This document shows positions 60,617-64,000 of a DNA stretch of 64,000 bases, piece by piece. The position numbers and the translations under genes were made by a program. The DNA comes from Muribaculaceae bacterium. Its GTDB lineage: Bacteria > Bacteroidota > Bacteroidia > Bacteroidales > Muribaculaceae. The DNA lies in NCBI GenBank assembly GCA_029068655.1, contig JAIECF010000110.1:1-64000 (forward strand), given 5' to 3'. How positions within the stretch are numbered: the first letter of the stretch is position 1; each line of letters starts with the position of its first letter. The notes under the pieces were generated by a model that saw nothing but the letters and a program-made list of their open reading frames with translations, had not been told where the DNA came from and did no database searches.

Positions 60617-60793
60617 GGCGGTGTTCTGTAGGGTTGAAAACAGTTTTTTTAGGGTTCGGAAGGCCAAAAAAGCACTTCTTCACTATAAAAATAACAAATA
60701 TAGTGGGCAGTAGTACTGAAATTGAAAAAATATTTTGTAATTTTGTAGTGGAAAACGCTTATCCCGATGTCAGGGATATTTCTGATCAGAAAG

Positions 60794-61774
60794 ATGTCGA
60801 AGACAACTATAGAGAAAATACGGCATCGCCTGGGTGCCGAACTCGATGCGATGAACTCCCTCATCCGCACGAGCCTTGCCACGTCCGACCCGCTGATGGG
60901 CCGGGTCGTGGAGCAGTATCTTCGCACCAAGGGAAAGCAGATACGCCCCCTTCTGGTGCTCCTGAGCGCCCGACTCTTCGGTGACATCAACGATTCGACG
61001 CTTCATGCGGCAGCCTCGCTTGAGATGCTTCACAACGCTACCCTTATCCACGACGATGTGGTGGACAACGCCGACTACCGGCGGCGCACCCCGACCCTCA
61101 ACAAGGATTTCGACAACCGCATAGCGGTGCTCGTGGGTGATTTCTTCGTCAGCACCGCCCTCCAGGAGGCTATCAAGACGAAAGATATGAAGGCTGTTGT
61201 ATCTGTGGCGGAGCTCGGTAAGGAGCTTTCGCTCGGAGAGATAGACCAGATCTCAAACGCACGCGAACGTTCCATCGACGAGGCGCGCTATTTCGATGTG
61301 ATAGGCAAGAAGACGGCCTCGCTTTTCATGAAATGCGTAAAGATGGGAGCCGAGACCACCGACGCCACTCCAGCCGAGATAGATTCCCTTGTGGAGTATG
61401 CGCGTCTGCTCGGACTCTGCTTCCAGATAAAGGACGACATATTCGACTATTATGAGGACGTGGAGGTTGGCAAGCCTACAGGCAACGACCTGCGTGAGAA
61501 TAAGATCAGCCTTCCGCTGATACATGCGGTCAATTCCTCTGCAGGGCCTGCAAGCGACTCCATGCGCTCTCTCCTCATGCGTGGCGATCTCTCGGATGCG
61601 GAGATAGCCGTTCTCATCGACTTCGCTAAGACCCACGGCGGCATCGACTATGCCTACCGGGTGATGGAGGATATGCGTGTCAAGGCCGCCCGCCTTCTCG
61701 AGTCGCTCCCGGCCAATGAATGGCGCGATGACTTCGCTGAGCTTTTCGCCTTCACCATACGTCGCCATTCGTAA
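60794..61774 (+). CDS. Polyprenyl diphosphate synthase
   Basis: LIHDDVVDNADYRRRTPT (first Asp-rich motif) and LCFQIKDDIFDYYED (second). Confidence 0.93.
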   Translation: MSKTTIEKIRHRLGAELDAMNSLIRTSLATSDPLMGRVVEQYLRTKGKQIRPLLVLLSARLFGDINDSTLHAAASLEMLHNATLIHDDVVDNADYRRRTPTLNKDFDNRIAVLVGDFFVSTALQEAIKTKDMKAVVSVAELGKELSLGEIDQISNARERSIDEARYFDVIGKKTASLFMKCVKMGAETTDATPAEIDSLVEYARLLGLCFQIKDDIFDYYEDVEVGKPTGNDLRENKISLPLIHAVNSSAGPASDSMRSLLMRGDLSDAEIAVLIDFAKTHGGIDYAYRVMEDMRVKAARLLESLPANEWRDDFAELFAFTIRRHS

Positions 61775-61858: not shown

Positions 61859-62884
61859 TCAGAAGAGCCCGGCGATCGAGAGGGGTATGTAGAGGGTGTT
61901 GGTGATAACTCCGAGCACGAACGATATTATTATCCATATCTCGGCGTTGCGCGATGCGCGGCGTGCTCCCTCCATGTCTCCTTCGTAGAACCGGGAGCTT
62001 ACCTTCGCCGAGTATATGATGGCGACTATGCCGGGTATGGTGCAGCACAGTATCGTCATGATCACCGACCATACGAGGAATGTCGGTGGCATCGGTTCTG
62101 TCGTGGTTGCGGCGGTATTAGCTTGCCGGCTTGCCGTTTTATAGGGTTGATATGCCGTGGCGTTGAGAGGATGCGAATCCGTAGGGTTGTGGGGTCCGTC
62201 GGTTGTGGAATTGTCGGGTTGCCGGTCCTTCTGAGGCACCGGGGGGACGTTGTTTGGCACTCCCAGGGCTTCCGCCCATGCATCGTCTACGCTTTTGGGC
62301 ACGGCCGGTGGAGTCATCGAGGCTACCGTCTTCATTACCGCCTCGGGGAATATCAGGTATTCCACCTCATGTACCTTTGCCTCCAGCGACTCGGGGGTAT
62401 CGTCGGGGAGCACGGCCACTTCCCTCTGCACCACTATGGGTCCGGCGTCGATCTCGTTGGTCACTACGTGCACCGTAGCTCCGCTCTTGGTCTCGCCGGC
62501 TTCGATCACCGCCTTATGCACGTTGGCTCCGTGCATCCCCTTTCCTCCGAAAGCCGGCAGGAGCGAGGGATGGATGTTGAGTATTCGCCCTTCATAGGCA
62601 TTGACTATGTCCTCGCTGAGGAAGCAAAGGAATCCGGCCAGCGCGATCACCTTGATGTCTCGCTGTCTGAGGGTGTCGAGTATGGCCTGCGGATCCTCCT
62701 TCCACACGTTGCGGGGAAAGTAGATGGTCTCTACGCCGAGCTCGTTCATCTTTTCGATTACCGGTGCGTTCTCACGGTCGGTCAGGCAGAGGGCTACGTG
62801 GATGCGGTTGCCCGAATTGAAGGTTTTTACGAGATTGACGGCGTTGGAGCCGTTGCCGGAGGCGAAGACTGCTATGTTGGTCAT
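61859..62884 (-). CDS. purN: Phosphoribosylglycinamide formyltransferase fused to C-terminal CD225/dispanin-like membrane domain
   Basis: PurN: FASGNGSNAVNLV, LNIHPSLLPAFGGKGMHG, GATVHVVTNEIDAGPIV; C-terminus: LVWSVIMTILCCTIPGIVAIIYSAKVSSRFYEGDMEGARRASRNAEIWIIISFVLGVI. Confidence 0.9.
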   Translation of the reverse strand: MTNIAVFASGNGSNAVNLVKTFNSGNRIHVALCLTDRENAPVIEKMNELGVETIYFPRNVWKEDPQAILDTLRQRDIKVIALAGFLCFLSEDIVNAYEGRILNIHPSLLPAFGGKGMHGANVHKAVIEAGETKSGATVHVVTNEIDAGPIVVQREVAVLPDDTPESLEAKVHEVEYLIFPEAVMKTVASMTPPAVPKSVDDAWAEALGVPNNVPPVPQKDRQPDNSTTDGPHNPTDSHPLNATAYQPYKTASRQANTAATTTEPMPPTFLVWSVIMTILCCTIPGIVAIIYSAKVSSRFYEGDMEGARRASRNAEIWIIISFVLGVITNTLYIPLSIAGLF

Positions 62885-62892
62885 GGTGAAGT

Positions 62893-62927
62893 TATCAGTT
62901 TTCAGTTGTCAGTTTTCAGTTATCAGT
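62893..62927. repeat. Heptanucleotide repeat (TATCAGT/TTTCAGT/TGTCAGT, 5 units)
   Basis: Direct reading. Confidence 0.85.
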
Positions 62928-62929
62928 AG

Positions 62930-64000
62930 TCAGCTGCTCAGGGCGTGCAGGCGAGCGTAGTGGCCGTCGAGGGCAAGGAGCTCGGAGTGTGTGCCGGTCT
63001 CCACTATCCTGCCGTCTTTCATCACGCATATTACGTCGGCGTTGACGATAGTCGACAGCCGGTGGGCTATCACTATTGTGGTGCGGTCGGTCATGAGACG
63101 GTCGAGTGCCTCCTGTACGAGGCGTTCGCTCTCATTGTCGAGTGCCGATGTTGCTTCGTCGAGTATGAGTATGTCGGGATTCTTGAGGATCGACCTTGCT
63201 ATGCTTATACGCTGCCGCTCGCCTCCCGAAAGGCGGCATCCGCGGTCGCCGAGCATGGTGTCGTAGCCATCGGGAGTAGCCATGATGAAGTCGTGGGCAT
63301 TGGCTATCCTGGCCGCGCGTTCCACTTCCTCCTGCGTGGCGCTTTCGTTGCCGAAGGCTATGTTGTTGCGGAAAGTGTCGTTGAAGAGTATCGCTTCCTG
63401 GTTTACGTTGCCCATCAGGCCCCTTAGGTCGGCGACCTTCACTTCGCGAACGTCGCGCCCCTTCACCTTTACGGAGCCTTCCGTGACGTCGTAGAATCGG
63501 GGTATGAGGTCTACGAGTGTCGACTTGCCTGAGCCCGACTGCCCGACAATGGCCACCGTATGTCCTTTGGCCACCTTGAGGTTGATGCGGTCGAGCACCG
63601 TGCGGTCGTCGCCGTCATATCTGAACGATACGTCTTTGAACTCGATTGCCGGAGTGTCGGCGGGATCCTTCGGCAGTTCCGCGGGATCCACGGGGTCCTT
63701 GATCGGATTCTCGGCGTCGAGTATCTTGTCGATCCTGGCGAGGGCCGCCATGCCTTTCGATACTGCGTAGCCCGTCTTCGAGAGGTCTTTCGCAGGATTT
63801 ATGATGCTGTAGAAGATGGTCATGTAGAAGATGAATGTGGCAGCGTCAATGCTCGATGAGCCGCTCAGGATGAGCGTACCCCCGAACCATAGCACCACCA
63901 TTACGGCGATCGTGCCGAGAAACTCGCTCATGGGGTGTGCGAGCGCCTGACGGCGTAGCATGGCATTGGCCGACTTCACGTAGCTCTGCGTCTCGGAGCG
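62930..64000 (-). CDS. ABC transporter permease/ATP-binding protein (MsbA-like exporter), 5' end beyond window
   Basis: Walker A GQSGSGKST, signature LSGGERQRISIARSI, Walker B ILILDEATSALD; ORF open to the window edge. Confidence 0.92.
   Translation of the reverse strand, partial: RSETQSYVKSANAMLRRQALAHPMSEFLGTIAVMVVLWFGGTLILSGSSSIDAATFIFYMTIFYSIINPAKDLSKTGYAVSKGMAALARIDKILDAENPIKDPVDPAELPKDPADTPAIEFKDVSFRYDGDDRTVLDRINLKVAKGHTVAIVGQSGSGKSTLVDLIPRFYDVTEGSVKVKGRDVREVKVADLRGLMGNVNQEAILFNDTFRNNIAFGNESATQEEVERAARIANAHDFIMATPDGYDTMLGDRGCRLSGGERQRISIARSILKNPDILILDEATSALDNESERLVQEALDRLMTDRTTIVIAHRLSTIVNADVICVMKDGRIVETGTHSELLALDGHYARLHALSS

Follow-up and report, generated by a model that had tools for sequence, protein, structure and literature searches.

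PurN, the GAR transformylase, catalyzes an early step of purine synthesis, for which PurT is the formate-dependent alternative; PurH acts further down the pathway. The enzymes of de novo purine synthesis are considered soluble, and PurN is known as a soluble enzyme of one domain or as a component of purine multi-enzymes. CD225/dispanin proteins have an effect on membrane fusion and virus entry that is known mainly from the animal members, and the bacterial dispanins are the proposed ancestors of the antiviral IFITM proteins. A G-D pair, an A-x6-A motif and a Cys-Cys pair are hallmarks of the dispanins (PMC3282796), and the function of bacterial dispanins had not been studied at the time of PMC4488726. 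In vertebrate TrifGART (GARS-AIRS-GART), the partners of the PurN domain are other purine enzymes (PMC10912719). No description of a PurN-CD225 fusion was found in the literature searched, with most subscription journals falling outside its coverage.

The window (the whole stretch of DNA analyzed, 64,000 nucleotides) encodes such a fusion on the minus strand at 61859..62884. It is a single open frame of 341 amino acids, with an ATG start and without internal stops. The N-terminal PurN domain (Formyl_trans_N, PF00551; residues 3-183, 62336..62878, minus strand) was detected by Pfam at 3e-41, with 141.6 bits against a cut-off of 26.1, and is a full-length domain as the match covers profile positions 2-181 of 181. 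Comparison with PDB sequences gave the GAR transformylase 3tqr as the best solved-structure match (5e-33). The catalytic Asn103-x-His105 in LNIHPSLLP (62570..62578, minus strand) and the catalytic Asp146 (62447..62449, minus strand) correspond to N106, H108 and D144 of E. coli PurN; all three are present, and none of them varies among the 42 full fusions. The TIGR00639 score was 148.8 and 150.5 in two runs, around the cut-off of 150.1, and sister fusions fall on either side of it.

The PurN domain is followed by a Pro/Thr-rich linker (residues 189-264; 62093..62320, minus strand), with 13 Pro and 10 Thr among the 74 residues counted over 191-264. The linker is fast-evolving apart from a short WAxxL motif, here WAEAL at residues 203-207 (62264..62278, minus strand) and followed by a PPxP stretch. 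This motif is kept even where PurN is gone: its W-A pair occurs in 90 of 91 orthologues, whatever domain precedes it. The C-terminal CD225/dispanin domain (PF04505; residues 265-331, 61892..62092, minus strand) matched at 1.4e-24, with 86.4 bits against a gathering cut-off of 27.1. The top two hydropathy peaks of the protein are a first hydrophobic helix at residues 268-292 (62009..62083, minus strand) and a second one at residues 315-337 (61874..61942, minus strand), and the loop between the helices is basic (5 K/R versus 4 D/E). The dispanin motifs are found as C280-C281 in the first helix and as G302-D303 and A307...A314 (A-x6-A) in the loop, and are present in most orthologues. The open frame, the Pfam matches, the hydropathy and the linker composition thus bear out the initial annotation, which had described a full PurN, a Pro/Thr-rich linker and a CD225 domain with two helices. 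An AlphaFold2 model built on an alignment of 10 near relatives was poor (mean pLDDT 49). The protein has no GYF_2 match in Pfam and did not match any of the PADLOC anti-phage defense models.

Directly upstream lies an msbA-type ABC transporter gene (62930..64000, minus strand, continuing beyond the end of the window), which locus comparison identified as a conserved neighbor. Short repeats of the type TTATCAGTTTTCAGT lie in the gap that separates the transporter gene from the fusion (62885-62932). The side away from the transporter is flanked by polA and by a convergent polyprenyl synthetase gene (60767..61774, plus strand), which occupies this position mainly in close relatives.

We sampled 111 genomes of one Muribaculaceae genus of gut bacteria, many of which are incomplete draft assemblies, and typed 91 orthologous CD225 loci from DNA with profiles built in the analysis. 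A search for the fusion in relatives had been proposed in the initial annotation; 42 of the 111 genomes carry it in full, the window's own and 41 further assemblies, representing at least two MAG projects. The other typed loci comprise 31 with a decayed PurN and 18 with linker and CD225 only, and an additional decayed locus (in G051) lies beyond the 31. Full, decayed and CD225-only forms occupy one msbA-adjacent site, with most of the 91 loci adjoining the same msbA-type gene. Among the matches listed, no PurN-CD225 fusion was present in 313 genomes of other Muribaculaceae genera (down to E ~1e-41) or in 146 genomes of other Bacteroidales families (down to E ~1e-18), limits at which a diverged fusion could escape. 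PurN is free in other genera, in frames of mostly 190-250 amino acids, and an unfused purN stands directly behind an msbA-type gene in 8 checked genomes of other genera. The PurN of the fusion is of the ordinary Bacteroidales type, with mostly 38-47% identity to Bacteroidales PurN. CD225 proteins occur in nearly all sampled Muribaculaceae genomes; in the other genera they are proteins distinct from PurN, and those inspected there have a GYF_2-like head, which Pfam confirmed in one protein of another genus and in one paralogue of the window's own genome. A 194-amino-acid paralogue with GYF_2 and a weak CD225 match (L002/L190, contig C34) is encoded in that genome. In the tree, free PurN proteins of two other genera (L162 in G121 and L166 in G144) branch from within the fused ones, which reflects either domain transfer out of the fusion or tree error. 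Separately, a 305-amino-acid frame in G057 (L098, 5033-5947) has a weak PurN match (118 bits, TIGR00639) and ~110 additional N-terminal residues.

Several lines of evidence bear on whether the fused enzyme works. In the window's clade, PurN and CD225 had median dN/dS values of ~0.06 and ~0.08, and the linker one of ~0.26; as dS is high, these values are rough. None of the 42 full-fusion genomes contains a second PurN, including the 19 that are at least 90% complete. This perfect association between the full fusion and the absence of another PurN is given as raw counts; a phylogeny-corrected test had 5 independent pairs on the best tree and 1 on the starred branches, which is too few. PurT is absent in 12 of these 19 near-complete genomes, and since neither another PurN nor PurT was found there, the fusion is the sole recognizable GAR transformylase in those 12 species. 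The window's own genome has PurT and the fusion therefore need not be essential there. Of 20 fusion genomes examined for PurH, 19 have it. The absence of another PurN or PurT while PurH is present indirectly supports that the fusion acts on GAR with 10-formyl-THF.

In ~30 species the orthologue holds PurN residues 1 to ~104 only and has lost the HPS motif and all catalytic parts; half-PurN-CD225 loci of this kind include L109, L115, L120, L123, L127 and L133. When two half forms were compared with Pfam, one still matched Formyl_trans_N at positions 1-106 (1e-4). The remnants do not look like plain pseudogenes, because most have LFNEGNR and APREVV motifs in common and dN/dS was ~0.08-0.15 in three of four sets; it was 0.40 in one very close pair, and dS was near saturation in most sets. 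The N-terminal ~100 residues thus appear to be under constraint. A second PurN was found in 26 of the 31 decayed-fusion genomes and in all 15 of the near-complete ones. In most of these species the other PurN is of a different type, and at the loci examined for operon context (L044, L045, L066, L071, L103 and L105) the second PurN lies in a purL-purM-purN-purH cluster, in which PurL, PurM and PurH were named by eye from their sequences. This operon PurN has a strong TIGR00639 match, differs from the ordinary Bacteroidales PurN and looks acquired. We had first labeled it the 'canonical' type, a label that was dropped when the PurN of the fusion turned out to be the ordinary Bacteroidales one. 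A different form of loss was seen in G018, where a full-length PurN-CD225 has the catalytic NxHPS changed to AIFPS and so lacks the catalytic His; this pseudoenzyme is present in two seemingly identical copies (L099 and L100, on contigs C19 and C38).

When the MsbA tree is rooted on other genera, full fusions make up its deepest branches within the genus, an order that fits one fusion with decay afterwards. The decayed heads cluster together in the PurN tree on long branches (support 89), which would give the decayed form a single origin. The MsbA tree rejected this grouping (p-AU 1.6e-9) but did not reject decayed and CD225-only loci as one clade (p-AU 0.054), and decay may have occurred once or several times.

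The fusion is real, conserved and under selection. We consider it a genuine, working GAR transformylase anchored at the inner membrane, in which linker and CD225 have a membrane role of their own, and assign this reading a probability of roughly 0.8. The initial annotation had predicted a membrane-tethered GAR transformylase, and the invariant catalytic residues, the purifying selection, the position as sole PurN of the genome and the intact dispanin hallmarks are in favor of this. Its further suggestions, a localized purine synthesis or a regulatory assembly, are speculative. The N-terminal domain would be cytosolic and would formylate GAR with 10-formyl-THF, and the flexible linker would connect it to the two-helix CD225/dispanin domain sitting in the membrane; activity, membrane insertion, topology and the separate role of CD225 are inferred from the sequences. 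As to its origin, an ordinary Bacteroidales purN behind msbA may have been joined to a CD225 gene in the genus or its ancestor, and the fusion may then have taken over from the free PurN. The linker-CD225 unit probably outlives the PurN part, which would decay or disappear when the cell has a second PurN, or PurT, to rely on. Its own membrane role is proposed because the unit is still there when PurN has decayed or vanished, and the retention of linker and CD225 in sister species with a decayed PurN suggests that CD225 does more than anchor PurN.

Two other readings deserve attention, both of which we regard as unlikely. The first sees the PurN domain primarily as a sensing or structural head of the dispanin and only secondarily as an enzyme; it would report the GAR, folate or purine status to a membrane process, perhaps together with the neighboring ABC transporter, and species with another PurN would keep only the required non-catalytic half. 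The half-PurN heads of ~100 residues, which have lost the catalytic half but share motifs and show low dN/dS in three of four sets, would agree with this, as would the GYF_2 domain that takes the place of PurN in CD225 proteins of other genera and the retention of linker and CD225 in every state. In full fusions, however, all catalytic residues are retained although a sensor as such could do without them, 18 orthologues have no recognizable PurN remnant, and the constraint estimates suffer from the near-saturated dS and from the value in the very close pair. A variant that would unite both functions is slightly less probable still. In it, PurN was recruited as a ligand-sensing dispanin head; the full form makes FGAR and also couples a membrane process to the purine and folate status, and a housekeeping enzyme has given rise, in the truncated forms, to new sensors or scaffolds that lack catalytic activity. 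According to the second reading, the two genes were joined by accident and with a nearly neutral effect, and PurN works alike free or tethered and decays whenever it is redundant. The second PurN that accompanies the decayed one in all near-complete genomes, the fast-evolving linker and the unfused PurN of the same type that serves other Bacteroidales sampled are all in line with such passive behavior, but 42 species across a diverse genus have kept the fusion whole and the half-PurN head is still constrained. Lastly, an assembly chimera or a frameshift joining two genes is practically impossible even though the window's assembly is fragmented (264 contigs), because the uninterrupted frame is intact in the 41 further assemblies from at least two MAG projects, next to the same flanking gene, and the close relatives, in which two separate genes would have pointed to an artefact according to the initial annotation, are all fused.

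If the preferred reading of a membrane-anchored working enzyme holds, many species of one genus seem to run one step of purine synthesis at the membrane. As a natural enzyme-dispanin fusion with full, truncated and absent heads at one locus, it provides a handle on the function of the dispanin membrane part. It also illustrates clearly how a housekeeping enzyme becomes a conserved domain that has lost its catalytic function.

Compared with the described systems, the fusion shares the whole domain and the catalytic Asn, His and Asp with bacterial PurN (PF00551, TIGR00639), but adds a linker and two membrane helices. With the CD225/dispanins (IFITM1-3, PRRT2 and bacterial dispanins) it has the PF04505 match, the two hydrophobic helices and the G-D, A-x6-A and Cys-Cys motifs in common, whereas it has an entire enzyme at its N-terminus. 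The GYF_2-CD225 proteins of Bacteroidales have the same layout of a soluble N-terminal domain, a linker and CD225; they carry GYF_2 where the fusion has PurN, and at the loci examined they were not located beside an msbA-type gene. In vertebrate TrifGART the PurN domain is likewise part of a larger polypeptide, but its partner in the fusion is a membrane domain.
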